This document shows positions 43,588 through 57,976 of a stretch of 64,000 nucleotides of DNA, in pieces. The translations under genes and the position numbers were made by a program. The number at the start of each line of letters is the position of its first letter. The first letter of the stretch is position 1. The DNA lies in the NCBI RefSeq assembly GCF_011758645.1, contig NZ_JAAMOZ010000003.1, forward strand, positions 1-64,000. Reading direction: 5' to 3'. A model generated the notes under the pieces. It was not told the origin of the DNA. It made no database searches and worked only from the letters and a program-made list of their open reading frames with translations. Origin of the DNA: Brooklawnia cerclae. Lineage in GTDB: Bacteria; Actinomycetota; Actinomycetes; Propionibacteriales; Propionibacteriaceae.

Positions 43588-45486
43588 ATGAGAACCCCCT
43601 TCGGCGCATGGCGAGCGACCTACACTCCTGGACGCTGGGTCGCGCTGTCCGGGCCCACATCGATGGTCGTCCTCCAGCCCGCGCCACCGGCGGCGTCCGG
43701 GCTGTTCGCGAACCTGTGGGACCAATTGCTGACCAGTGCCTCGATCACACAGGTGAGTGCGACGCTCGCGTCCTTCGGGCTCGACTCGATGCCCGACCTG
43801 GCGGTCTTCTTCTGGGACGACGAGCAGGTGCACTGCCTGCTCCGCGGCGCGATCCAGGTTCTGGACGCCGACTCGGGCGAGCCGCTCGCGGGCGGTGGCG
43901 GGGCCCACACCTGGTACGAGGCGTCCCTGACGACACGCCGTATCTACGTGCCGCTGGACGAAGTGGACGCGGGCGATCTGCTGCAGTTGCCCCTGGTGGT
44001 CGGCGGGGCCGAGGTCTCGGCGGTGTTCCTGGACGCGAGCACCACCGATGAGTCCGCCCCCGCCGTGTCGGCGGAGGATTCCGCACTGTCGCCCGGGATC
44101 CCCGCGCCGGTCACGATCGGCGAGGAGACCCCCGATGATGCGGGCCGGCACTTCGCGGGCGCCTTCGAGACCCCTGGGGCGTTCGAGGTCGTGGACGAGG
44201 ACGAGGAGGCCCCCGCGGGCATCGCGGGTATCACCGGGCCCCCGGTCGCCTTCGGGCCGCCCCCGGTCGAGTCCTTCCTCGCCGGATCGGCCGCGTTCCA
44301 GTCCGCCCCACCCGAACCGGCTCCACTCGACTCCACCCGGCCCGACCTGATGCAGCCCGACGCGGTGCAGGCGTTCCCCGCGTCCGGCGAACCGTTCGCC
44401 GACTCCGTCCCCGTGCTGCCGGAGGAATGGGGCGGTGCCGGGCTCGAACCCGATGTGGCGGTCGAGCCGGAACCCTCGCCCGTGGACGAGCCGGACGTCC
44501 CCTGGCAGCCGGAGCAGGCCCCGTTCGGCGCGGAGTCGTTCGGCGCCGCGTCGTTCGAGCCGGAGCAGGCACCGTCCGAGTCGGTCCCGTTCGGCGCGGA
44601 GTCGTTCGGGTCGGTTCCGTTCGCACCGCAGCCCCGCCTCGAACAGCCGCCGGCGCCGCGTCCCGAGGCTCCGCGCGGCCCGCGGGCACCCGTGGAGCCC
44701 ACGCAGGTGCTGGGGGAGCGTCCCCCGTGGGCCCCCGGGCAGGATCCCGCCGATCAGGATCCCGCGGAGTTCGGGCATGCGTTCAGCGCCTACCGCGGGC
44801 GGCCCAACACGACCGGCCCCTGGGGTGCGGGCGGGTTCGCCGCACCCGTGGCCGCCGGGATGCCGGTGGCGGAGGCGTCCGTGCCGATCGCGTCCCAGGT
44901 GCCCCCGCCGGTGCCGGTGCCCCGTCCCCTCGGTCGCAACGTGGACGCGGGCGAGGACCACGACGGAGAGACGGTGTTCACCACGGGCATCGCGGCCACC
45001 CACAAGCCCGCGGGGGGCCGGAACAGCGACAACAACCTCGTCCTGGCCGCGTTGTGCCCGCTCGGCCATCCGAACGCGCCCGGCACGCTGCAGTGCCGCA
45101 TCTGCGGCGGCTACGTCGACTCGCACAACCCGCAACTGGTCAACACACCGCTGCTCGCCGTGCTGCAGACCTCGACCGGTGACCAGGTGCCGTTGACCGG
45201 CCCGGTGCTCATCGGCCGTGCGCCGTCCAACTCCGGCAACGACCTGGACGCCGAACTTCTGCGGGTGCCGAGCCCCAACCACGACATCAGCCGCACGCAT
45301 GTGCGCGTCGCGCCACGTGAGTGGACCGTCGAGGTGACTGACCTCTACTCGACCAACGGGACGACGATCGTCCCCCCCAACGGGCAGCCGGTCAAACTGG
45401 AGTCCGGGCAGACGGTCGGGCTCGCCGTCGGCGGTGCGATCGATCTCGGGGACGGCCAGGTCATCGTCCTCCTGCCGCCCGTCTGA
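43588..45486 (+). CDS. FHA-domain protein with zinc-ribbon-like motif, first gene of a PFNA-like cluster
   Basis: 632 residues. About 1-150 is a folded unknown domain (WDQLLTSASITQVSATLASFGL; DLAVFFWDDEQVHCLLRGAIQV). About 150-480 is acidic, Pro-rich low complexity with AESFGAASFEPEQAPSE-like repeats. Then a four-ligand motif C-x2-GH-x9-C-x2-C (CPLGHPNAPGTLQCRICGGY, about 490-510) and an FHA domain (about 525-632) with VLIGRAPS, SRTHVRV and STNGTT, so phosphothreonine binding is expected. No signal peptide or membrane helix. Similar cytoplasmic FHA proteins sit in actinobacterial clusters with MoxR, DUF58 and transglutaminase genes. ATG 43588; no strong ribosome site. Confidence 0.82.
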   Translation: MRTPFGAWRATYTPGRWVALSGPTSMVVLQPAPPAASGLFANLWDQLLTSASITQVSATLASFGLDSMPDLAVFFWDDEQVHCLLRGAIQVLDADSGEPLAGGGGAHTWYEASLTTRRIYVPLDEVDAGDLLQLPLVVGGAEVSAVFLDASTTDESAPAVSAEDSALSPGIPAPVTIGEETPDDAGRHFAGAFETPGAFEVVDEDEEAPAGIAGITGPPVAFGPPPVESFLAGSAAFQSAPPEPAPLDSTRPDLMQPDAVQAFPASGEPFADSVPVLPEEWGGAGLEPDVAVEPEPSPVDEPDVPWQPEQAPFGAESFGAASFEPEQAPSESVPFGAESFGSVPFAPQPRLEQPPAPRPEAPRGPRAPVEPTQVLGERPPWAPGQDPADQDPAEFGHAFSAYRGRPNTTGPWGAGGFAAPVAAGMPVAEASVPIASQVPPPVPVPRPLGRNVDAGEDHDGETVFTTGIAATHKPAGGRNSDNNLVLAALCPLGHPNAPGTLQCRICGGYVDSHNPQLVNTPLLAVLQTSTGDQVPLTGPVLIGRAPSNSGNDLDAELLRVPSPNHDISRTHVRVAPREWTVEVTDLYSTNGTTIVPPNGQPVKLESGQTVGLAVGGAIDLGDGQVIVLLPPV

Positions 45487-45661
45487 CTACGTACCGGCGG
45501 ACGCGGGAACGATGCGGACGCGGCCAGCTGAGCCGCGGGCGGTCGCCTGATCGCTTCGGCGTGACCCCCTCGGGGGGTGGAATAGTGCTTCCGGGGCGGT
45601 CGCCCGGGTGAGAATGCTCGGGGGCGCTCGGCCGTGCCCCTCGGACTGGCTGAGAGGTTGC

Positions 45662-48600
45662 ATGGCGAAGCAGGGCGGAACCCGGCTCGGGGTCGGCGCG
45701 AGAACGCGTGCCCTGCTGGCCGAGCGACGCAGTGTCCGCCTCGCCGGTGGCTGGCTCCGCCGCTCCTGGGCGACGGTGCTGGTGGTCGTGATCTCGATGG
45801 CCGTGGCCTTCTTCGCCTTCGTCAACCCGGGTGAGGCAGCCACCGACCTGCATCTGGACGAGGGATCGGTCTACGTCCAGAACCAGGGGCGCGCGATGGT
45901 CGGCGGCCTCAACTACCAGATCGACCAGATCGCCGCGGCCACGTCGGTGGGCGACACGGCCACCACCCTGCTGCAGGAGGACGGCACGGTTCTGGTGAAC
46001 AACGCCGGTAGTTCGACCCTGCAGATCTACGACCCCGCCACCAACACCCTGTCCAGCCCGGTGACCCCGCCGGTCGACGCGCAGCTCAGCCTCAACAACG
46101 GCGTCCTCGCGGTGACCAACCCCGAGAACGGCAAGGTGTGGTTCGGGCCCGTCGACGAGATCGCCCGGTCCGACTTCAAGGGCAACGCCGACCTCGACCT
46201 CGGCGACTGGGGCCAGGCGGTCGTCACCACTGACGGCGAGGTGATCGGCCTGAACGTCCAGGACTCCACGATCGTGCGGCCCGACGGCTCCGTGGTCGAG
46301 ATCCCCTTCCAGGTCGACAGTTCCTCACCCACGGCACAGCTGTCGGCGATCGGCGACAAAGCCGTCGTCCTCGACCGGACGAGTCAGCAGATCTGGGTCG
46401 AGGGAGACCGGCAGGCGGTGACCATCAGCTCGGGCTCCACCGCACAGCTCGCCCCGCCGATGCCCAATACGCTGGCCTCGGGCCGGGGGGGCAGCGCGAT
46501 CTACGCCACGCAGGCTGGGCTCAACACGATCGCGGACGGGGCGCCCGCGTCGCTGTCGGGGTCGATGGATGCCAGCCCGACCGAGCCCGTCGTCGTCAAC
46601 GGGTGTGCCTACGGCGCCTTCGAGACCCGCGTCGTCAAGGTGTGCACCGGTGGCGAGCCCGAGATTCAGGACATCCCGCAGCTGCCGGCCGACGCCGATC
46701 TGCAGTTCCAGGTGAACCGCGGCATCGTCGTCCTGCAGGACGTGTCGTCCGGCATCGTCTGGCTGGTCGACAAGGACATGCTGGTGGTCGACAACTGGGA
46801 GGAGGTCGCCCCGTCCACCCAGACGAGGCAGTCCGACCCCAACCCGCCGGACGATCGCACGACGCTTCCCGATCGCACCCAGGCCAACCGGGCTCCCGTC
46901 GCCCTCGACGACCCCGACCTCGGCGCACGCGCCGGCCGGTCGACGCGCCTGTCCATCCTCGACAACGACTCGGACGAGGACGGCGACATCATCACGGTGA
47001 GCGAGGTGTCGTCCGTCGAAGGGGCGACGCTCGAGCTCACCGGCAACGGCTCCGGCCTGCAGATCACCCTGCCCGCGGACGCCACCGGCACTCACCAGTT
47101 CACCTACACGATCTCGGACGGGCGCGGGGGCACGGCGTCGGCCACGGCCACGGTCAAGGTGCTCCCGGCCGACCAGTCCGGCGGGAACACCGCGCCGGAG
47201 AACATCCGGCCCGGCGAGACCCTCATCGTGGGCTCGGGGACGACGGCCAGCAAGCGGGTGCTGCTCACCTGGCGCGATCCCGACGGCGACGACCTGGTGC
47301 TCGTCAATGCCCTGCCGGAGACGAACGACTCCGAGGACGAGGTGACCTTCACCCCCGACGGAACGGTGACGTTCCGCGACGTCGGCAAGACCACGGGGAC
47401 GAAGAAGGTGCGGGTGTTCGTCAGCGACGGGACGACACAGGTCGAGGGGATCCTGCTCGTCGACGTGCGGGAGCGGGGACAGGCTCCGCCGGTCGCCAAC
47501 GGCGACTTCGTCACGACCATGGTCGACAGGGAGGTCGTCGTCTCGCCGCTCGACAACGACGAGGGTAACAACCTCATGCTGACCGAGATCGATCAGTCGA
47601 CGCAGGACTTCACCGTCACGCCCAACTACCCCGAGGGCACGTTCACCTTCCGCTCGTCGAGCCCGGGCACCTATTACCTGACCTACAAGGTGAACAACGG
47701 GTCGGTGTCGTCCGGGCTGATCCGCGTCGACGTCCTGCCCACCACCGACGAGAACCATGCCCCGGTCGCGCTGCGCGACGTGGCCCTCGTGCCGTTCGGC
47801 GGCTCGGTGGTGATCGACCCGCTGCTCAACGACACCGACGCGGACAACGACGTGCTGGTCGTCCAGTCGATCACCCAGAACCCGGCGGTCAAGGTCGTCA
47901 TGCAGGAGCGCCACCTGCTCACCATCTCGATGGTGACGCACACCGACACCCCCATCGCCCTCACGTACTGGGTGTCCGACGGGCGCAACTCCACTCCGGG
48001 GACGATCGTCGTGTTTCCCTCGCCCGAGGCCGGTTCCCACCTGCCGCGCGCCGAGAACGACACGGTGAAGGTGCGGGCGGGTGCGACGGTCAGCGTCCCC
48101 GTGCTCGACAACGACGTCTCCCCGGTGGGTCTCGACCTGACGGTCTCCGGCCTGCCCGACAACCCGCTGGGCGATCTGGCGTGGGTCGACGGCGACTACG
48201 TGCGCATTCAGGTGCCCGCGGCGACCGCGGCGACCACGATGTCGCTGACCTACGAGATCACCGATTCGGCGGGCATGGCCGACGCGGCCACCATCTCGGT
48301 CACGGTCATCAGCGCGGACGCACAGAACGAGGCCCCGGTGCCGGAGCTGGTCACCGCCCGTGTGCTGTCGAACAGCGTGACCACCATCACGATCCCCCTG
48401 ACCGGCATCGACCCGAACGGGGACGCCACACGCCTGCTGGGCCTGGGCTCCGGGCCGTCCCTGGGCCGGATAGTCGAGGTCGGCGACGGCTGGCTGCGCT
48501 ACGAGGCCTATCAGGACTCGCGCGGCACCGACACCTTCCGGTACCAGGTGGTCGACTCGCTGGGGGCGGTCGGAACCGGCGAGATCCGCATCGGCGTCGC

Positions 48601-51600
48601 CCCGCCGTCGGACGACAACACCGCCCCGACGGGTGTGCCGGACGAGGTGACCGTGCGTCCGGGCCCTTCGCTGACGCTGCCGGTGATGGCGAACGACTAC
48701 GACATCGACGGCGACCAGTTCGGCTTCCTCGACACCGACTCGCTCGACGCGGACTTCGAGGCGACCGTCACCGACGATCAGTACGTCAGCGTCGTCGCAC
48801 CCTCCGAGCCGGGCGACTACGTCGGCCAGTACTACCTGATGGACAGCCGCGGTTCGACCGGCAGCGGGCTGATCTACCTGCATGTGGACGAGGACGCCCC
48901 ACTGCTGGCGCCGGAGGCGAACGACGACCAGGTGGTGGTGAACGACATCATCGACCAGGAGTGGGTCGACGTCGATGTGCTGGCGAACGACTTCGACGTG
49001 GACGGTCCGCGTTCCGAACTCGTCGTCTCGCTGCCCGGCACGGGTTCGGAGGGCTCGCAGGTGGAGGCCACCGTCGTCGACGGCAAGGTCAGCGTCCACG
49101 TCAGTGACCAGATGCAACAGGTGCGCTACACGATCACCGACGCGGACGGCAACTCCGCCGAGGCGGTGATCGTCGTCCCGGGCCGCAACGACTCGGTGCC
49201 GGTGCTGGCGCTGCCGGATGCGGAGAACTCGGTCGAGGCCGGCAAGGTGCTCACGATCAACTTCGACACCATGCTGCTCGGAACGCAGGGCCGCAGCGTC
49301 CGGCTGACGAGCGCCGACACCGTGAAGGCCACCAAGGGGACGGTCAACATCCGCCCCGAGGGCATCGACTTCCAGGCCGACGTGCGGTACGCGGGGCCCG
49401 CGTCGGTGGTGTTCGAGGTGATCGACGACACCGACCCGACCGACAAGACGGCTCGCCGTGCCTACATCTCGGTGTCGATCACGGTGACCCCCGCGGACTC
49501 CGGTGACGGCTCGCAACGCGACCAGGACAGCGTCTCGAACCGCGCGCCCGAGGGCCCCAGCCAGATCACCCTCGAGGTGGGTGCGGGCGAGTCCGATCAG
49601 CAGTTCCCCCTGCGGGGGCGGTTCAGCGACCCCGAGGGCGACAACTTCTCGTTCCAGTCGTGGGAACAGGTGAGCGGCGACGGCGGGGTCTCGTGGAGCT
49701 CGTCGGTCGGCGGCGACACGATCGTCGCCCGCGGTGGCATGACCAACAAGGGCTCCCAGGTGACCCTGCGCGGGCATGTGGTGGACGCGTACGGGGCGGG
49801 CCGCGAGGTGACCGTCATCATCAACGTGATCGGCTCGACGCGTCCCCTGCCCGTGGCCCAGACCGACACGGTGGACGACGCGGACGCCGGCCGGCCCAGA
49901 TCGGTGCCGGTGCTCGCCAACGACCGGTCGTACCTGGAAGGGGACCAGAGCCTCAAGGTGCTCAGCGCCCGGGTCGTCTCGGGCACCGGGTCGGCGAGCG
50001 TCAGCGGCGACAACGTCGTGGTGACCCCCGGCGACGACTTCGTGGGGACGATGACCGTCTCGTACACCATCGTGGACGCCACCGGCGACACCGCCCGGCA
50101 GGTCGACGGCGTGATCCAGCTGAACGTGCGGGCGCGCCCGAGCAAGCCGGGCGTCCCGACGATCGAGGAGGAGGGCAACAAGCAGGTCACGCTCAAGTGG
50201 ACGTCGAACTCCAGCAACGGCCTTCCGGTGATCGAGCGCGTCGTCACGGCCACGGGCGCCAACGGGTCGCAGGTGGTGTTCGACGAGTGCGAGGCCAACG
50301 TCTGCACGGTCACGGGGCTGACCAACGACCTCGCCTACACGTTCCATGTGCAGGAGGGCAACGAACTGGGCTTGTCGGACGCCTCCGGTGAGTCGGCGGC
50401 GGGAACCCCGGACGTGAAACCGCCGAAGGTGTCGACCCCGACCCTGGAGTTCCCGGGTGCGAACCGGCCGGGCGAGTTGCGCCTCACGTGGTCCGCGCCG
50501 CAGTTCGAGGGCTCGGCCGTCAGCGAGTACACGATCACCTCGTCGGACGGCAGCGTGCCGACCGTCACCGTACCGGCCGGCACGACCAGCTATACCTTCA
50601 CCGGGCTCACGAACTACGCCAGTTACCAGTTCACGGTCAGCGCGACGAACAAGAAGGGAACCTCCGACCCCTCCAATCCGTCCAACGTGGAGCATCCGTC
50701 GGCTGCACCACCGAGCCCGGCGGCGCCGACCGTGTACGACACGAACGACTGGTCCGGCCAGTCGCTGGACGTGCAGTGGACGGTGCCTCCTCAGCAGGGG
50801 GACCAGTTCACGGTGTACCTGGTGGCCCAGGGCGGCGGCCGCGAGATCGTGCAGCAGGTGGACGCGGGCAGCGGTGGCGGTACCACGCGGATCACGGGTC
50901 TGTCGCGGCGAACGGAGTACCGGGTGTTCGTGCGCATCACCACGCGGGGTGGCACCACCGACGGCCCGTCGTCCAGTTCGGTGACCACGACGGCCGCGCC
51001 GGAGAACCCGGCCACGGGTACGATCTCGGCGAGCGCGCCCGACACGATCACGTTCACCCTGGGCGGCAACTCGGGCCAGGACTGGGACTACGCGCTCGTG
51101 GAGCTGGTGGGCACGGGGCAGCAGCCCGTCTCGTTGCAGCCGGGCGAGAGCCACAGGTTCACGGTGAGCGACTACTACACGGACTTCCACGTGAGGACCA
51201 CGGCGGTGGCGTCGGCGAACTCGGGTCCCAAGACCGGCGCGACGTGGGACTCCGAATCAGCGCGTGCCTACGGGACGCCGACGATCGGCGTCACACATGT
51301 CGGTTACACAACGGACAACAAGGCCGTGTTCCGGGTCGGCAGCGTCCAGGCGAACGGCACCAACTGGCAGATCACGACGCCGGCGGGCGGCTGGGAGGGC
51401 CAGGAGTTCGAGGTCGAGACCGGTGGCAAGCAGGTCTCCACGACCGTGGAGGTGTGCGACACCGGCCACTCCGGCAACTGCTCCACCGCCACCGCGACGG
51501 CCAAACCGGCCCTGGCGGCGTCCGGAGGCAAGTCGGGCGCCCTGACGATCACCATCAACGACACCTCCGCACCGACCTGGGCCTGCTCCGTGGGCGGTTG

Positions 51601-51733
51601 GAGCGGGAACGTGGCGAGCGGCTCCGAGCAGAAGATCACGGTCACCCCGACCCCCGAGGCCGGCAAGCAGACCCTCACGTGCAACGTCCCCTGGACCGAT
51701 CGTGAGCACAGCGTGGACGTGACCTTCTCATGA
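45662..51733 (+). CDS. Giant membrane-anchored surface protein with Ig/cadherin-like and fibronectin III repeats
   Basis: 2023 residues. A basic cytoplasmic start (about 1-33) precedes a single membrane helix (SWATVLVVVISMAVAFFAFV). About 60-405 is an extracellular region with beta-propeller-like short repeats (VYVQNQGRAMVGG; VLVNNAGSSTLQIYDP). From about 409 to 1490 run nine to ten Ig/cadherin-like repeats with Ca2+-type loops (ILDNDSDEDGD, LLNDTDADND, LANDFDVDGP). From about 1490 to 1780 are three FN3 domains (KPGVPTIEEEGNKQVTLKWTS first). The last 240 residues are another beta-rich region with paired Cys. It resembles the fn3 gene product of bifidobacterial PFNA clusters. GAGAGG precedes ATG 45662. 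Confidence 0.88.
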   Translation: MAKQGGTRLGVGARTRALLAERRSVRLAGGWLRRSWATVLVVVISMAVAFFAFVNPGEAATDLHLDEGSVYVQNQGRAMVGGLNYQIDQIAAATSVGDTATTLLQEDGTVLVNNAGSSTLQIYDPATNTLSSPVTPPVDAQLSLNNGVLAVTNPENGKVWFGPVDEIARSDFKGNADLDLGDWGQAVVTTDGEVIGLNVQDSTIVRPDGSVVEIPFQVDSSSPTAQLSAIGDKAVVLDRTSQQIWVEGDRQAVTISSGSTAQLAPPMPNTLASGRGGSAIYATQAGLNTIADGAPASLSGSMDASPTEPVVVNGCAYGAFETRVVKVCTGGEPEIQDIPQLPADADLQFQVNRGIVVLQDVSSGIVWLVDKDMLVVDNWEEVAPSTQTRQSDPNPPDDRTTLPDRTQANRAPVALDDPDLGARAGRSTRLSILDNDSDEDGDIITVSEVSSVEGATLELTGNGSGLQITLPADATGTHQFTYTISDGRGGTASATATVKVLPADQSGGNTAPENIRPGETLIVGSGTTASKRVLLTWRDPDGDDLVLVNALPETNDSEDEVTFTPDGTVTFRDVGKTTGTKKVRVFVSDGTTQVEGILLVDVRERGQAPPVANGDFVTTMVDREVVVSPLDNDEGNNLMLTEIDQSTQDFTVTPNYPEGTFTFRSSSPGTYYLTYKVNNGSVSSGLIRVDVLPTTDENHAPVALRDVALVPFGGSVVIDPLLNDTDADNDVLVVQSITQNPAVKVVMQERHLLTISMVTHTDTPIALTYWVSDGRNSTPGTIVVFPSPEAGSHLPRAENDTVKVRAGATVSVPVLDNDVSPVGLDLTVSGLPDNPLGDLAWVDGDYVRIQVPAATAATTMSLTYEITDSAGMADAATISVTVISADAQNEAPVPELVTARVLSNSVTTITIPLTGIDPNGDATRLLGLGSGPSLGRIVEVGDGWLRYEAYQDSRGTDTFRYQVVDSLGAVGTGEIRIGVAPPSDDNTAPTGVPDEVTVRPGPSLTLPVMANDYDIDGDQFGFLDTDSLDADFEATVTDDQYVSVVAPSEPGDYVGQYYLMDSRGSTGSGLIYLHVDEDAPLLAPEANDDQVVVNDIIDQEWVDVDVLANDFDVDGPRSELVVSLPGTGSEGSQVEATVVDGKVSVHVSDQMQQVRYTITDADGNSAEAVIVVPGRNDSVPVLALPDAENSVEAGKVLTINFDTMLLGTQGRSVRLTSADTVKATKGTVNIRPEGIDFQADVRYAGPASVVFEVIDDTDPTDKTARRAYISVSITVTPADSGDGSQRDQDSVSNRAPEGPSQITLEVGAGESDQQFPLRGRFSDPEGDNFSFQSWEQVSGDGGVSWSSSVGGDTIVARGGMTNKGSQVTLRGHVVDAYGAGREVTVIINVIGSTRPLPVAQTDTVDDADAGRPRSVPVLANDRSYLEGDQSLKVLSARVVSGTGSASVSGDNVVVTPGDDFVGTMTVSYTIVDATGDTARQVDGVIQLNVRARPSKPGVPTIEEEGNKQVTLKWTSNSSNGLPVIERVVTATGANGSQVVFDECEANVCTVTGLTNDLAYTFHVQEGNELGLSDASGESAAGTPDVKPPKVSTPTLEFPGANRPGELRLTWSAPQFEGSAVSEYTITSSDGSVPTVTVPAGTTSYTFTGLTNYASYQFTVSATNKKGTSDPSNPSNVEHPSAAPPSPAAPTVYDTNDWSGQSLDVQWTVPPQQGDQFTVYLVAQGGGREIVQQVDAGSGGGTTRITGLSRRTEYRVFVRITTRGGTTDGPSSSSVTTTAAPENPATGTISASAPDTITFTLGGNSGQDWDYALVELVGTGQQPVSLQPGESHRFTVSDYYTDFHVRTTAVASANSGPKTGATWDSESARAYGTPTIGVTHVGYTTDNKAVFRVGSVQANGTNWQITTPAGGWEGQEFEVETGGKQVSTTVEVCDTGHSGNCSTATATAKPALAASGGKSGALTITINDTSAPTWACSVGGWSGNVASGSEQKITVTPTPEAGKQTLTCNVPWTDREHSVDVTFS

Positions 51734-51779: not shown

Positions 51780-52751
51780 ATGGCCATGACCATCGACCAG
51801 GCCCACTGGTTCGCAGACACCTTCGCCAGCGTGGTCCGCAACGTCGAGCGCGCGATCATGGGCAAGACCGAGGCCGTGCGGCTGGCGGTGACCTGCCTGC
51901 TCGCGGAGGGGCACCTGCTGCTGGAGGACTACCCCGGCACCGGCAAGACGACGCTGGCCCGCGCGCTCGCCCAGAGCGTCCAGGGCCAGTCGAGCCGCAT
52001 CCAGTTCACCCCCGACCTGCTGCCGTCCGACGTCACCGGCGTCACGATCTACGACCAGAAGACCGGCGACTTCGAGTTCCACGCGGGGCCGATCTTCGCG
52101 AACATCGTGCTCGCCGACGAGATCAACCGCGCCTCGCCCAAGACGCAGTCGGCGCTGCTCGAGGTGATGGAGGAGAGCCGGGTGACCGTCGACGGCCACC
52201 CCTACCCGGTGGGCGCGCCGTTCATGGTGATCGCCACCCAGAACCCGATCGAGCAGGCGGGCACTTACCGGCTGCCCGAGGCCCAGCTCGACCGCTTTCT
52301 CATGAAGACCACGCTCGGGTATCCCGACCGCGACGCCACTCTGCGCATCCTGGCGACGGGCGGGACGCGTCCCCGGTCGGCCGCCTTGGCCGCCGTCATC
52401 ACCACCCAGGCGGTCACCGAGATGAGCCAGTTGGCGTCCTCGGTGCACGTGGAACCTGCGGTGTTCGACTACATCGCGCGCGTGGTCGAGGCGACCCGCG
52501 TGGCCGACGACGTGCGTCTGGGGGTCTCGGTGCGCGGTGGGCTGGCGCTGGTGCGCTGCACGCGCGTGTGGGCGGCCTCACAGGGGCGTCACTTCGTCGT
52601 CCCGGACGACATCAAGATGCTCGCCGTGCCCTGCCTCGCCCACAGGCTGATCCTCGATCCCGAGAGCGAGTTCAACGGGGTCACCGGCGAGCAGGTGATG
52701 GCGCGGGTGATCGGCAGCGTCCAGCCGCCCACCGAGCGGGCAGTGAGCTGA
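51780..52751 (+). CDS. MoxR-family AAA+ ATPase
   Basis: 323-residue MoxR ATPase, a class of chaperone-like AAA+ proteins. Walker A LLLEDYPGTGKTTLARALAQ (about 41-60), FTPDLLPSDVTGVTIYD, Walker B NIVLADEINRASPKTQSALLEVMEE, sensor 1 FMVIATQNPIEQAG, the DRFLMKTTLGYP segment and the C-terminal lid with VSVRGGLALVRCTR. MoxR proteins typically act with the DUF58 protein coded directly downstream, as here. GGAGA lies 9 nt before ATG 51780; a second in-frame ATG follows two codons later. 46 bp after the giant surface protein gene, same operon. Confidence 0.93.
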   Translation: MAMTIDQAHWFADTFASVVRNVERAIMGKTEAVRLAVTCLLAEGHLLLEDYPGTGKTTLARALAQSVQGQSSRIQFTPDLLPSDVTGVTIYDQKTGDFEFHAGPIFANIVLADEINRASPKTQSALLEVMEESRVTVDGHPYPVGAPFMVIATQNPIEQAGTYRLPEAQLDRFLMKTTLGYPDRDATLRILATGGTRPRSAALAAVITTQAVTEMSQLASSVHVEPAVFDYIARVVEATRVADDVRLGVSVRGGLALVRCTRVWAASQGRHFVVPDDIKMLAVPCLAHRLILDPESEFNGVTGEQVMARVIGSVQPPTERAVS

Positions 52752-52759
52752 GCGGGTCC

Positions 52760-54055
52760 ATGGCGCAGAGCACGTTCCCGGGCACCACGTTCCCCGACAC
52801 CGCATTCCCGGATGCCGTGCCGGTGGACGCCGCCGAGCGCTGGCGGGTCCCCGAGGCCGTGGCGGCCCCGGACGTCTCCCGGGTGACGATCGTCGGGGCT
52901 CGCGTGAGCGACGCGCTCGGGATGCGTCCCGCGGGCTGGGCGGTGGCGGGCGTCGTCGTCCTCGTGGTGGTGCTCGGATGGACGCTGCGCTGGCAGGAAC
53001 TCCGCCTGGTCGCGGTCTTCGCGGGGCTCGTGCTGGGTGTCGCGCTGTTGTTCACGATCGGCCATCCCAGTTTCCAGGTCGACCTCCACGTGCCCGACCG
53101 GCGCGTGGTGGTGGGCGAGGTGGCCTCCGGCGGCCTGCGCCTGGTCAACACCGCGAACCGGCGCAACCTACCCGCCCGTATCGATCTCCCGATCGGCGAT
53201 CGGGTGGCCTCGTTCGACGTCCCCAGCCTTGCCCCGGGGGGATCGAGCGTCGACGAGTTCACGATTCCGACCGATCGGCGCTGCGTCCTGACGATCGGTC
53301 CCGCGCAGTCGATCCAGGGCGACCCGTTCTCGCTCACCGGACGCCAGACCGAGTGGACGACGACCGTCGAGGTCTTCGTCCACCCCCGCACGGTGCCGCT
53401 GGCCGGGCGGCAGACGGGCTTCGTCCACGATCTGGAGGGGCATTCGAGCACGCGCACGGCGGCCAGCGACATGAGCTTCCAGTCGCTGCGCGAGTACGCG
53501 CCCGGGGACGATCGGCGGCAGGTGCACTGGCGTAGTTCGGCGCACATCGGCAAGCTCATGGTGCGCCAGTTCGAGGAGACTCTCCAGTCACGCGTCGCGC
53601 TCGGTATCGACCTTGCCGCGGTCTCGTACCTGGGCGCCGACGACTTCGAACCGGCCGTCAGCGTGGTCGCCTCGCTGGCTCTGCAGGCCGTGCGCGAGCA
53701 GAATCCGCTGACCCTGTTCCATAACGCCGAGGCGATGCCCGCGGTCAGCGGCCCTCGCGCTCTGGACGAGTTGTCGCGCCTGGAACGCCGGTCGCGTACC
53801 GATCTGCAGACCCTCGCCAGCACGATGATGCGGCTCGATCCCCAGGCGTCGGTGGTCATGCTCGTGACCGGGGCGGGCAACACCCTCGACACTCTGCGCC
53901 GCGCCTGCGCGGTGTTCGACCTCGACACCCGCGTGGTCGGCATCCAGGTCGATCCGGCGGCCCGGATCATGGTGCGCAACGTGGCCAACGTGTCACTGGT
54001 GCGGATCGCCGAGTTGTCGGAGTTGCCGCGAGCGATGAGACGGGCGATGCCGTGA
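52760..54055 (+). CDS. DUF58-domain membrane protein
   Basis: 431 residues. N-terminal 60 are polar with a Phe/Thr/Pro-rich start (FPGTTFPDTAFPDAVP); two membrane helices follow at about 62-105 (AVAGVVVLVVVLGWTL; VAVFAGLVLGVALLFTIG). A beta domain (about 110-210) leads to the DUF58 signature DMSFQSLREYAPGDDRRQVHWRSSAH and a vWA-like C-terminal domain. DUF58 proteins are standard partners of MoxR ATPases. ATG 52760 starts 8 nt after the MoxR stop, and its TGA overlaps the next GTG, so expression of the three proteins is tightly coupled. Confidence 0.9.
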   Translation: MAQSTFPGTTFPDTAFPDAVPVDAAERWRVPEAVAAPDVSRVTIVGARVSDALGMRPAGWAVAGVVVLVVVLGWTLRWQELRLVAVFAGLVLGVALLFTIGHPSFQVDLHVPDRRVVVGEVASGGLRLVNTANRRNLPARIDLPIGDRVASFDVPSLAPGGSSVDEFTIPTDRRCVLTIGPAQSIQGDPFSLTGRQTEWTTTVEVFVHPRTVPLAGRQTGFVHDLEGHSSTRTAASDMSFQSLREYAPGDDRRQVHWRSSAHIGKLMVRQFEETLQSRVALGIDLAAVSYLGADDFEPAVSVVASLALQAVREQNPLTLFHNAEAMPAVSGPRALDELSRLERRSRTDLQTLASTMMRLDPQASVVMLVTGAGNTLDTLRRACAVFDLDTRVVGIQVDPAARIMVRNVANVSLVRIAELSELPRAMRRAMP

Positions 54056-56400
54056 TCGCCGCGCACGAGGACGGAGCGACCGGGCTTCGACCGTCAGCGC
54101 TGACCGGGCCCGTCGAAGCGGTCGGCGCCCGACGGGCCCGGCCGTCGTCCGCGGCCGGTGCTGTGGCGCGTCTGCCCCTGTACCTCGATGCCATCGGCCT
54201 GGCCGCGCTGGCCGTCGCCCTGGTGATCGTCCTGCTGCCCGCCTACGGCAACGGCTGGGTCTGGGTGACTGTGCTCGGGGGCACCGCGCTCGGCATGGGA
54301 CTCGCCCTGATCAGCGCGAGAAGGCGCTGGAACGCGTCCCTCACCGCCCTGGTCGGCATCGGCGCGTGGTTCGTCCTCGGGAGCCCGCTCGCGATGCCGG
54401 ATTCCGCGATCGGCTTCGTCGTCCCGACCCTGCGCACCTTGGAGGGGCTCGCGACCGGTCCCGTGACCGCCTGGCGCGACATGCTCACGATCGCCCCGCC
54501 GCTCGGCACCACCTGGAACCTCATGACGGTGCCGCTGCTGCTGGCGCTGGTGTCCGGGCTGCTCGGCACGACGATCGCCCGCCGCTCGTCGGCCCCGACG
54601 CTGGCCTGGGTGCCGTCCCTGGCCGCCTGTCTGATCGGCTTTCTGCTGGGCACCCATCACAGCGTCGCCCCGCTGGCGGTGGCCATCGGCATAGCTGTGG
54701 TCGTGCTCGTCTGGACGACCGCGCAGCGCGCCCGGGCCCGCACCACCCTGGTGCGCACCGCATCGCGCCGGCGGCTGCCCAACGGTCTCACGGGGGCGCT
54801 CGTCCTGGCTGTGTGCACGGCCCTGACCGTGGCCGCTGCGCCCTTCGTCGATCCCCAGGAGTCGCGTGTCGTCCTCCGCGAGCTGGTCGAACAGCCCCTC
54901 GACGTGCGCGACTACGCGTCCCCGCTCCAGGGTTTCCGGGCCAACATCAGTGAGCACGAGAACGACGTCATCATGACCGTCGACGGGGCTCCGGCGAGCG
55001 GGGTGATCCGCGTCGCCACGCTGGACGCCTACGACGGCCTCACCTACAACGTGTCGAACGCCGACGTGGGGTCGCAGATCGAGTTCCTGCCGGTCGGGGC
55101 GCGCATCGAGGACCCGACGGTCGGTGAGCACCACACCGTCGCCGTGACGATCGGCGACTACAGCGGCGTGTGGCTGCCCAACACCGGTGCGACGCTCGAC
55201 GTCGAGTTCCTCGGGGACCACGGCGTCGACCTGTCGGACAGCTTCTACCACAACATGGGGAGCGGGACGAGCATCGTCACCGCCGGGCTGACCAGCGGTG
55301 ACAGCTACGTGCTGGAGGCCGTGTCGCCCGCAACCCCGACCGAGGCCGAGATCAGGGACGCCGCCGCCGGTTCGGTGACGCTGCCCGAACCGGGCGATGT
55401 CCCCGACCGGGTGCGCGACCTGGCGGCCGTGTGGACGAGCGGGGCGTCCAGCGCCGGGGATGCGGCGCTGATGCTTGCCGACCGCCTCTCGACCACCGGG
55501 TGGTTCAGCCACGGGGTGGGGCAGGACGCCACTCCGTCGCTGCCCGGCCACTCGTTCTCGCGGCTGTCCACCCTGCTCGCCGACGAGGAGCAGATGGTCG
55601 GGGACGAGGAACAGTACGCCGTCGCGATGGCACTCATGTGCCGGGTGCTCGGCATCCCGGCGCGTGTCGTCTACGGCTACACCGTGCCCGAGGGCGGGAG
55701 CGGGGAGGTGCACGGCTCCGACGTCGGCGCCTGGACCGAGGTGTACCTCGACGGCCTGGGCTGGGTGATGTTCGACCCGACCCCGGCGCACGACCGAGTG
55801 CTGAAGCAGTACGACGACAGTGAGAACCCCCAGACCCGCCCGCACGTGGAGAATCCTCCGCCCCCGCCTGAGCGTCCCGAGGAACCGCCGTCTGACAACC
55901 GGATGCCTGTCGACCCGGCGCCCGTGCCCGAGGAGAACGACCGCATCGATCTGGGGCAGGTGCTCGGGTTCACGGCAGTGGTAGGGCTGCCCGTCGTCAT
56001 CCTGCTGGGGCCGATCGCGCTCGTGCTCGGGCTCAAGCATCGTCGCCGGAAGATGCGCATGAACGCGCCGGAACCCGCCGGACGCGTGGCCGGGGGCTGG
56101 GCGGAACTGCTCGACCAGGCGCGCGACCTCGGTACCACGATGTCGCCCTCGGCCACCCGCACCGAGCAGGCGGAAAGGCTCGCGGGCACGTACGGCAGGC
56201 TGGAGCAGTCGATCGACACCATCCGTCTCGCACGGCAGGCGGACGCGTCCACCTTCGCGCCCGATCCGGTGAGCCCGGAGCAGGCCGCGTCCTTCTGGGA
56301 AGGCGTCGATCAGGCCATTCGCGGGCTGCGTGATTCCGTGACGCGCAGGCGGGCCGTCTGGGCCAGGCTGTCCCCGCGCTCGTTCCGGACGTTCCGATAG
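54052..56400 (+). CDS. Transglutaminase-fold membrane protein with substituted catalytic residues
   Basis: 782 residues. About six helices in 40-270 (DUF3488/TgpA-like), an extracellular beta region (about 290-440), the transglutaminase core (about 470-585), a Pro-rich linker, one helix (VLGFTAVVGLPVVILLGPIALVLGL) and a cytoplasmic helical tail. In the core the usual Cys is Glu519 (MVGDEEQYAVAMALMCRVLGI) and the usual His is Gly559 (SDVGAWTEVYLDG); only FDPTP of the triad region remains. It therefore probably cannot perform standard transglutaminase or protease chemistry and may be a binding module. GTG start in GTGA overlap with DUF58. Homologous to the tgm position of PFNA clusters. Confidence 0.88.
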   Translation: MIAAHEDGATGLRPSALTGPVEAVGARRARPSSAAGAVARLPLYLDAIGLAALAVALVIVLLPAYGNGWVWVTVLGGTALGMGLALISARRRWNASLTALVGIGAWFVLGSPLAMPDSAIGFVVPTLRTLEGLATGPVTAWRDMLTIAPPLGTTWNLMTVPLLLALVSGLLGTTIARRSSAPTLAWVPSLAACLIGFLLGTHHSVAPLAVAIGIAVVVLVWTTAQRARARTTLVRTASRRRLPNGLTGALVLAVCTALTVAAAPFVDPQESRVVLRELVEQPLDVRDYASPLQGFRANISEHENDVIMTVDGAPASGVIRVATLDAYDGLTYNVSNADVGSQIEFLPVGARIEDPTVGEHHTVAVTIGDYSGVWLPNTGATLDVEFLGDHGVDLSDSFYHNMGSGTSIVTAGLTSGDSYVLEAVSPATPTEAEIRDAAAGSVTLPEPGDVPDRVRDLAAVWTSGASSAGDAALMLADRLSTTGWFSHGVGQDATPSLPGHSFSRLSTLLADEEQMVGDEEQYAVAMALMCRVLGIPARVVYGYTVPEGGSGEVHGSDVGAWTEVYLDGLGWVMFDPTPAHDRVLKQYDDSENPQTRPHVENPPPPPERPEEPPSDNRMPVDPAPVPEENDRIDLGQVLGFTAVVGLPVVILLGPIALVLGLKHRRRKMRMNAPEPAGRVAGGWAELLDQARDLGTTMSPSATRTEQAERLAGTYGRLEQSIDTIRLARQADASTFAPDPVSPEQAASFWEGVDQAIRGLRDSVTRRRAVWARLSPRSFRTFR

Positions 56401-56443: not shown

Positions 56444-57976
56444 ATGAGCCAATCGGCGGCGGGTGGCATCGTCGTCGCCCCACTGGGTGCCCGATTCGGG
56501 GCCGCTTTCGTCGATCGTCTCGTGCCGGGAGCGCTCGTCGGGCTGTGGGCGTGGCTTTTCGCCGGGCTGCAGCTGGGGGGTTGGCTCATCTACAGCGTCG
56601 CCTTCGCGATCGGGCTGTTGGGCTGGGTCATGGCGCAATGGTGGCTGTACGCGGTACGCCGTGCCGGGCTCGGGTTCAGGCTCTTCGGCCTGGAACTGGT
56701 CGGTCTCAAGGACGGTCGGCCGATCGGCTGGGGCCGGATGTGCCTGCGGACGCTGATCTCGCACGCGCTGTGGGCGTTCGTCGTGCCGGGCGTGATCATG
56801 GCGGTCTTCCTGGTCGTCCAGGAGCGCAGGCAGGGATGGCCCGACCTCGCGGTCGGGTCGCTGGCGATCGCCCGCCGTGCGAGGACCCCCCAACCGGCGA
56901 TGGCCCCGGCGTCGGCCATTCGTCGAGGCAACTCGACTGTGGGGCTGCCACCGCACCTGCTGTCGAACGCGTTCGCGGCGCAGCCCGATTACCCAGCACC
57001 GTCATCGCCCATCGACCACGCGCCGATAGACCACACACCGGTCGGGCAGGCGCTGATCGGCCCGGCACCGGTGAGCCAGGCATCCCCGGGCCAGGGGGCT
57101 CCGGGGCAGATGCCGACGGGACAAGCGCCGACAGGGTGGGGTCCGGTGGGCCAGGGACAGACGGGCCAGTCGGCGTGGGCGCCGCCGGTGGCACCCACCG
57201 GGCAGGCGCCTGCCTACCAGCGGCCGGGCGAGGCGTCGTCCTACCTGGCGTCGCCGTACCAGCAGCCCTCCCCGTCGGCACCGCCGTACCAGCCGGGCCC
57301 GGCGTCCACCCAGCAGTTCCAGCCGGGGTCGGCGTCCGCGCAACAGCCCTATGCGGCGTATCAGCAGTCGCAGCCTCCCCAGCAGGGGTGGCCCTATCCG
57401 CAACCCGCCCAGCCGCAGCCGTATCAGGCGGTGCAGGCGTATCAGCCCCCGCAACCGATGCCGCCCGGCCTGCAGCCGCCCGGTCAGCAGGGGGCCGTCC
57501 CCCCGCCGCCGCAACCGGGAAACGTACAGCCGCCCTTGCGCATCAAGCCTCGTCAGGCCCCGAGCGACGACATCGACGGCACGCGGTTGGTGGCGGCACC
57601 GGGCCGCGGGACGCGTCCGGCGACCGAGGGGTGGCATGTGCGGCTCGACGACGGCCGCGACATCCCGGTGAAGACCCTCGTGCTGATCGGCCGCAACCCG
57701 CAGCCCAGGCCCACCGAGCAGGACGCCACTCTCGTCCAGGCGGGCGAACCGGCGAGGACCGTCAGCAAGACCCATCTGGCCCTGGGCGTCGACTCCAAGG
57801 GCATGTTCGTGCTCGACCGGGGCTCGACCAACGGCACCGCGTTGATGACGTCCTCGGGAGCCCTCGAACCGTGTGCGGCGAACGCGATGGTGCGCCTGCA
57901 CGAGGGGCAGGTGGTGTCGTTCGGGGAGCGGCAGTTGCAGGTGCTGCGCTACCCGGCGTCGTCCTCGCGTTCCTGA
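56444..57976 (+). CDS. RDD membrane domain plus FHA domain protein
   Basis: 510 residues. An RDD domain with three helices (about 10-140) carries GARFGAAFVDRLVPGALVGLW, GLGFRLFGLELVGLKDGRPIGWGRMCLRTL and GWPDLAVGSLAI. About 150-390 is Pro/Gln/Gly-rich with period 5-8 repeats (GQAPTGWGPVGQGQTGQ; then YQQPSPSAPPYQPGP). The C-terminal FHA domain (about 400-510) has LVLIGRNPQP, VSKTHLAL and DRGSTNGTA, the residues needed for phosphothreonine binding. It would place a phosphopeptide-binding head at the inner face of the membrane. Last gene of the envelope cluster, 43 bp after the transglutaminase-fold gene; repeat element C follows. Confidence 0.88.
   Translation: MSQSAAGGIVVAPLGARFGAAFVDRLVPGALVGLWAWLFAGLQLGGWLIYSVAFAIGLLGWVMAQWWLYAVRRAGLGFRLFGLELVGLKDGRPIGWGRMCLRTLISHALWAFVVPGVIMAVFLVVQERRQGWPDLAVGSLAIARRARTPQPAMAPASAIRRGNSTVGLPPHLLSNAFAAQPDYPAPSSPIDHAPIDHTPVGQALIGPAPVSQASPGQGAPGQMPTGQAPTGWGPVGQGQTGQSAWAPPVAPTGQAPAYQRPGEASSYLASPYQQPSPSAPPYQPGPASTQQFQPGSASAQQPYAAYQQSQPPQQGWPYPQPAQPQPYQAVQAYQPPQPMPPGLQPPGQQGAVPPPPQPGNVQPPLRIKPRQAPSDDIDGTRLVAAPGRGTRPATEGWHVRLDDGRDIPVKTLVLIGRNPQPRPTEQDATLVQAGEPARTVSKTHLALGVDSKGMFVLDRGSTNGTALMTSSGALEPCAANAMVRLHEGQVVSFGERQLQVLRYPASSSRS

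Follow-up and report, generated by a model that had tools for sequence, protein, structure and literature searches.

A predicted pseudo-transglutaminase lineage of TgpA origin that is paired with giant surface proteins in Actinomycetota

TgpA of Pseudomonas aeruginosa is a membrane protein with an extracytoplasmic transglutaminase domain, and the purified domain has been put through a transglutaminase assay (PMC3507681). In bifidobacteria, the published gene order of the PFNA cluster is fn3, MoxR, DUF58, tgm, and in the papers on it the Tgm protein is a putative transglutaminase or is presumed to be a cysteine protease (PMC6803598, PMC8430577). The term 'presumably a cysteine protease' is from PMC8430577, and the word cysteine is absent from the main text of PMC6803598. 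Dead transglutaminase domains are already known, with precedents in RloB of Pseudomonas (PMC12239564) and in polymorphic toxins (PMC3482391). Here we analyse a stretch of 64,000 nucleotides from Brooklawnia cerclae (contig NZ_JAAMOZ010000003.1, positions 1 to 64,000; hereafter the window), in which the gene at 54052-56400 encodes a protein that resembles TgpA in being a membrane protein with a predicted extracytoplasmic transglutaminase-like domain. Judged by sequence, it belongs to an old and conserved lineage of pseudo-transglutaminases, and none of the cluster-type genes examined retains the catalytic nucleophile.

The gene and the sites on which the analysis turns are as follows.

54052 to 56400, + strand: TgpA-type pseudo-transglutaminase of 782 residues (open reading frame (ORF) list, Pfam and structure model; topology from a hydropathy scan)
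55420 to 55779, + strand: transglutaminase-like core, residues 457-576 (Pfam Transglut_core)
55546 to 55563, + strand: GHSFSR, residues 499-504; a GHxxxR motif that hardly varies among the Cys-less cluster-type genes (counts below)
55606 to 55608, + strand: codon of Glu519 (GDEEQYA), in the column of the catalytic Cys (alignments)
55639 to 55641, + strand: codon of Cys530 (ALMCRVLG), not conserved
55726 to 55728, + strand: codon of Gly559 (DVGAW), in the column of the catalytic His (alignments)
55774 to 55776, + strand: codon of Asp575 (FDPTP), the third triad position, kept (alignments)

The GTG start codon of this ORF overlaps the stop of the DUF58 ORF (54052-54055), which suggests coupled translation. 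A hydropathy scan predicts membrane helices at residues ~37-268, in the N-terminal part, and one more at ~632-664, which would place the transglutaminase-like domain between them outside the membrane. The Transglut_core match reaches 63.2 bits (cut-off 23), and the C-terminal tail is DUF4129-like (17.6 bits, below the cut-off of 24.8). Pfam matches with E up to 0.1 are limited to these two families. RloB-like proteins have a Pfam model of their own, to which the window protein gave no match at the same threshold; nor did the translation or Pfam reveal any RHS repeats or toxin domain after the transglutaminase-like domain in the same chain.

A structure model of the ectodomain has a mean pLDDT (predicted local distance difference test) of 68.6 and a pTM (predicted template modelling score) of 0.71, with weak ends. 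Its closest fold is the TgpA ectodomain of Pseudomonas (PDB 6G49 and 6G4H; Foldseek E 9.6e-13), with Z scores of 21.5 (248 residues) and 21.3 (246 residues) as against 10.7 for the structure ranked next. A sequence comparison with solved structures, at E up to 0.01, likewise matched TgpA alone. By sequence and model, the gene product is thus a TgpA-type membrane protein with the TgpA-type N-terminal part of the ectodomain.

The catalytic Cys-His-Asp (or Glu) triad is incomplete in this protein. The sequence-only reading had placed Glu519 in the Cys column and Gly559 in the His column, and the alignments bear out both assignments, together with its statement that the fold signature and FDPTP are retained, Asp575 falling in the Asp column. 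In the transglutaminase fold, the Cys stands at the start of a helix, and the His and Asp lie in or after the strands that follow. In the numbering of the model (window residue minus 261), Glu519 opens the long helix 258-271, Gly559 lies within strand 297-305 and Asp575 is just past strand 309-313, and on our reading of the predicted fold these three residues occupy the usual place of the triad. An alternative active site that uses Cys530, the sole ectodomain Cys of the window protein, had been named as the finding that would speak against loss of catalysis; this residue is Cys in just four of 123 aligned relatives. Other ectodomain cysteines were considered for the same role and set aside: some ectodomain Cys is present in 21 of the 123, and no column reaches 10% (highest 12/123).

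Relatives were collected from overlapping draws of 57 relatives and of 197 family, 394 class, 297 order (that of genome G309) and 296 phylum genomes, to which one named collection was added. All gene searches used the window protein as the query and may have passed over distant members. Those relatives that carry a name belong to Tessaracoccus and to other Propionibacteriaceae or Propionibacteriales. Rows were counted as distinct by one segment of the domain and, once a copy of the window (L001) had been taken out, the main set comprised 224 distinct rows including the window. For a recount independent of the state of the Cys column, genes were selected solely by their score in comparison with the window protein, with a minimum of 120 bits. 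Among the 180 distinct genes so selected, the Cys is kept in none and the His in 51 of 179. The residue at position 519 is Asp in 102, Glu in 28, Ala in 14, Ser in 14, His in 13 and Gly in nine. The question raised beforehand of whether the substitution is fixed across the cluster type is therefore answered in two ways: in the genes sampled, loss of the Cys is fixed and loss of the His is not. The pseudoenzyme reading itself is well supported by these genes, which were selected by score. All 33 Cys-containing rows, 27 of them TgpA-like, score at most 104.4 bits, and every one keeps both the His and the Asp or Glu. Eleven further rows, which make up the rest of the set, score below 120 bits and have no Cys; four are of the cluster type and seven belong to a smaller Cys-less set described below.

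The same pattern is seen in a full-length alignment of 123 cluster-type rows (L045 and L046, which lack an aligned site, were left out), with Cys absent in all 123, and in four of four cluster-type genes from other classes (L278, L280, L281 and L283). A phylum-wide search returned 17 Cys-containing rows, 14 of them from other classes, all of which keep the His and the acid. A canonical paralogue in the same genome as the window protein (L002/L188), accompanied by MoxR and DUF58, has the triad C-H-E. Because this paralogue keeps the triad, and no Cys occurs at the site in any of the 123 or of the 180 rows, loss at the Cys column is more than chance. Another Transglut_core protein of the window genome, at G000:C1:1579741-1580630 (L004, L006), has an intact C-H-D triad; a weak second match lies nearby on the opposite strand.

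The framework around the lost sites is preserved. Gln521, Arg538, Gly542, Glu563 and Trp571 are identical in all 123 rows, in which six different residues occur at site 519 and thirteen at site 559. Ranked by variability among 118 sites, 519 is 59th and 559 is 30th, and both are invariant in 15 canonical rows. The triad sites have lost their conservation, yet they are not the most variable sites. We also considered GHxxxR as a clade-specific sign of a new function and rejected the idea in this initial form. His500 is present in 176 of 183 Cys-less cluster-type rows as against two of the 27 Cys-containing TgpA-like rows of the main set, but it is also found in eight of the 17 Cys-containing phylum-wide proteins (L285, L287, L289, L291, L293, L296, L299 and L303) and is thus probably old. 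Arg504 is the better marker, being present in 182 of 183 cluster-type rows and in none of 27 and one of 17 Cys-containing rows.

The history of the loss was examined with quick trees that carry only Shimodaira-Hasegawa-like approximate likelihood ratio test (SH-aLRT) support, with the triad columns and column 518 masked. In the first (125 of 188 rows), one branch with an SH-aLRT of 100 splits the cluster type from the Cys-containing type, and the Cys state requires one change, with the His requiring 13 and the Asp/Glu 15; 22 of 94 cluster rows lack both His and Asp/Glu. The second tree (74 rows: 36 random cluster rows, half of the canonical rows and 18 phylum-wide rows) again requires one change for the Cys, with supports of 98 and 99. 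The Cys-less side is shared with the smaller Cys-less set, which contributes seven rows to the first tree and nine to the second. These are TgpA proteins near MoxR and DUF58 (loci L193, L196, L197, L198, L201, L202, L204, L284 and L290), with the motifs GTSEQF, GNSEQF, GTPEHY and GYSEQH, most of them lacking a detected giant protein; at L290, a match of the giant type (216 bits) lies on the opposite strand (L314). With the root assumed on the Cys-containing side, the likely order is that the Cys was lost first, that pairing with a giant protein came next, and that the His and Asp were lost repeatedly later.

The window gene at 54052-56400 stands in a single run of + strand genes that encode, in order, an FHA protein, a giant surface protein, MoxR, DUF58, the pseudo-transglutaminase and an RDD-FHA protein:

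43588 to 45486, + strand: protein with a C-terminal FHA domain, upstream of the giant gene (Pfam)
45608 to 51733, + strand: giant surface protein, an ORF of 2041 residues with Big_9/cadherin-like repeats and fn3 domains (Pfam)
45842 to 46897, + strand: beta-propeller domain of the giant protein, after its anchor (model pLDDT 86.7; beta-propellers top the fold search)
51780 to 52751, + strand: MoxR-family AAA+ ATPase with a P-loop (PGTGKT) and an LADE motif (Pfam; motifs read from the translation)
52760 to 54055, + strand: DUF58 protein (Pfam), its start at 52760 inferred from the translation
56444 to 57976, + strand: protein with an RDD membrane domain and a C-terminal FHA domain (Pfam)

The giant protein, as read from its sequence, has a membrane anchor near the N-terminus, and the top fold match of its propeller domain is an archaeal surface-layer propeller-PKD protein. 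MoxR and DUF58 genes stand directly upstream of 54052, as in the actinobacterial TgpA loci examined. The mechanically called DUF58 ORF opens at 52568, inside the MoxR gene, the likely start being 52760.

Giant proteins were detected with a model of their N-terminal part that was built from the same loci, and the loci fetched were chosen from ranked matches rather than as a random sample; within this selection, the Cys is present in none of 59 loci with a giant protein (55 fetched with long flanks and four from other classes). All four genes were detected in 53 of the 55 and MoxR was undetected in the other two. Conversely, a giant protein was detected in none of 20 Cys-containing MoxR-DUF58 loci (13 + 7) with at least 6 kb above MoxR, a set from which the Cys-containing locus L316, with ~1.5 kb above MoxR, was excluded. 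A less biased test of the pairing is provided by a search of 296 genomes for the propeller region of the giant protein, which identified 33 places in 24 genomes. For 32 of these places, the same strand carries a cluster-type gene at a distance of 7.4 to 14.5 kb downstream of the propeller. These 32 places correspond to 30 distinct genes, since there are two pairs of tandem giants above one cluster-type gene (G450:C1:1138170 + 1144402 and G499:C2:83179 + 88557), and all 30 genes lack the Cys.

The lineage also takes in the bifidobacterial cluster. An 18-base segment of 16S ribosomal RNA, which we take to be a signature of Bifidobacterium, was found in four of eight tested genomes of one family and in none of 12 others; the name Bifidobacteriaceae-like is used here as a label for this family on the basis of the signature and of gene order. 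All five of its loci with long flanks (L148-L152) contain the cluster, with MoxR undetected in L150. The Cys column holds Ser in 17 of 17 of these genes, the His is kept in none of the 17 and the acid in one, giving triad columns of S-(Q/E/T/A/K)-(Y/H/D), and the rows fall inside the same Cys-less clade. No report of a lost triad in Tgm was found in the open-access literature searched. A further example is carried by plasmid NZ_CP116225.1 of Actinomyces oris WVU627, on which genes for an Ig-like protein, MoxR, DUF58, WP_271289477.1 and an RDD protein follow one another. WP_271289477.1 is annotated as 'transglutaminase domain-containing protein' and has the triad columns D-K-D. Further on, on the opposite strand, the plasmid encodes a Ser/Thr kinase and two FHA proteins.

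Because the Cys is lost and its loss is common to the giant-linked relatives, the protein is probably a binding or assembly part rather than an enzyme. The reading we prefer, to which we give a probability of roughly 0.6, is that it is a pseudo-transglutaminase of TgpA origin that most likely serves as a non-catalytic receptor or clamp for the co-encoded giant protein; a binding or scaffold role of this kind is consistent with the close genomic pairing. In mechanistic terms, the alignments and trees suggest that, given the assumed root, the catalytic Cys was lost once in a TgpA-type lineage, whose fold, according to the model and the predicted topology, would have been kept and displayed outside the membrane. 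If the gene pairing is a guide to function, the ectodomain could be a binding module that holds, positions or assembles the giant propeller/Ig/fn3 protein; the MoxR ATPase and DUF58 protein might act on the complex from inside, supplying energy; and the FHA proteins, together with the Ser/Thr kinase found near some relatives, might regulate it. We also put forward, tentatively, a bolder version, in which one ancient loss of Cys made TgpA the dedicated, non-covalent clamp in a surface machine that is driven by ATP and occurs in several classes of Actinomycetota, with MoxR and DUF58 loading, gating or stabilizing a giant propeller-Ig-fn3 adhesin held by the dead transglutaminase, and in which the Tgm of bifidobacteria would be this clamp instead of an enzyme.

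Several observations weigh against a role as the partner of the giant protein. The role cannot be read from the operon alone, because Cys-containing TgpA also has MoxR and DUF58. The one giant gene outside the pairing (L187, G222:C11) is without a partner, no MoxR, DUF58 or transglutaminase match being found in 19 kb; the genes downstream of it encode a peptidase M20 and an acyl-CoA dehydrogenase. In the other direction, no giant protein was detected at the pseudo-transglutaminase loci L225 (G497:C14) and L226 (G358:C2) or, within 13.5 kb, at L222. The first two of these may represent decay after loss of the partner, a suggestion based on only two cases; L160, L176 and L182, where likewise no giant protein was detected, are cut by contig or stretch ends. 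Members of the smaller Cys-less set have other neighbours: L201, L202 and L196 adjoin small fn3 proteins, L201 and L202 also having weak giant-type matches (47-59 bits), and L198 and L204 adjoin Ser/Thr kinases with no giant protein detected. Lastly, about three in ten cluster members keep the His and 26 of 123 are D-H-D, so that a different chemistry is possible in part of the clade. As to the sequences of two of these loci, L225 has Gln at the position of His500, and L226 is listed with an in-frame TGA.

The main rival to the clamp is a sensor, in which the dead domain would bind a wall peptide or other ligand and report through the helices and tail to MoxR-DUF58 and to FHA and kinase proteins, the giant protein being a parallel output. 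This is possible but rather doubtful. FHA proteins flank the window operon, a motif scan found a kinase motif in 23 of 65 loci with a giant and a transglutaminase gene, kinase and FHA genes lie near the A. oris cluster, and the kinase neighbours of L198 and L204 also fit; the tight pairing, however, is with the giant gene and not with the kinase. That the domain retains activity by using Asp, Glu or Ser in place of Cys at the same pocket we consider improbable. Asp is the commonest residue at position 519, and the D-H-D rows would suit such an enzyme, but the residues found at 519 include Gly and Ala, those at 559 are of thirteen types, and the many changes in the His and acid on the first tree, with both absent in almost a quarter of its cluster rows, tell against it.

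Pseudoenzymes often regulate active paralogues, and the window genome does encode a canonical C-H-E TgpA with MoxR and DUF58 that could be the target. The two kinds stand in separate operons, however, and in 11 of 17 Bifidobacteriaceae-like genomes the cluster gene is the only Transglut_core gene found, so that there is no active paralogue of that family for it to serve there; we regard this role as very improbable. Least probable is that the gene is relaxed or decaying and has no present role. The triad positions vary and the gene at G358:C2, with its in-frame TGA, has no detected giant neighbour, but this view is largely contradicted by long open frames and a near-invariant framework over several orders and classes. 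A clamp or receptor for the giant protein is the reading that we retain.

The distinction has practical consequences. These proteins go by the name of transglutaminase in databases and in the PFNA papers, one of which presumes a cysteine protease (PMC8430577). If none of them catalyses, work on the bifidobacterial host-interaction cluster should seek binding, assembly or sensing instead. The dead form is paired with one giant protein and the Cys form with none in the loci seen, which offers an opportunity to test how a new role in a MoxR-DUF58 system comes to be filled by a pseudoenzyme.

A TgpA-derived Cys-less lineage that spans several classes, is paired with one giant protein and covers Tgm was not found described in the open-access literature searched, and the locus can be set against each of the described systems in turn. 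TgpA keeps its triad, whereas in the window protein the Cys and His are missing, and its gene is paired with that of a giant surface protein. The bifidobacterial PFNA cluster, as described in PMC6803598 and PMC8430577, is matched by the window in the order of fn3 protein, MoxR, DUF58 and Tgm, but differs at its head: the kinase gene pkb2 heads PFNA, whereas an FHA gene occupies that place in the window, where no kinase match was found among the 17 ORFs scanned with Pfam (38966-61877). RloB is described as having an inactive transglutaminase domain outside the inner membrane, fused helices and a genetic phenotype; it is, however, encoded in its own operon with the retropepsin RloA and the ATP-grasp protein RloC, and 96% of its matches are in Proteobacteria (PMC12239564). 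The inactive transglutaminase domains of polymorphic toxins have likewise lost the triad, and peptide binding for surface anchoring has been proposed for them (PMC3482391), but there the domain lies inside the toxin chain, before the RHS repeats, whereas in the window it forms part of a separate membrane protein encoded beside a giant Ig/fn3 protein.

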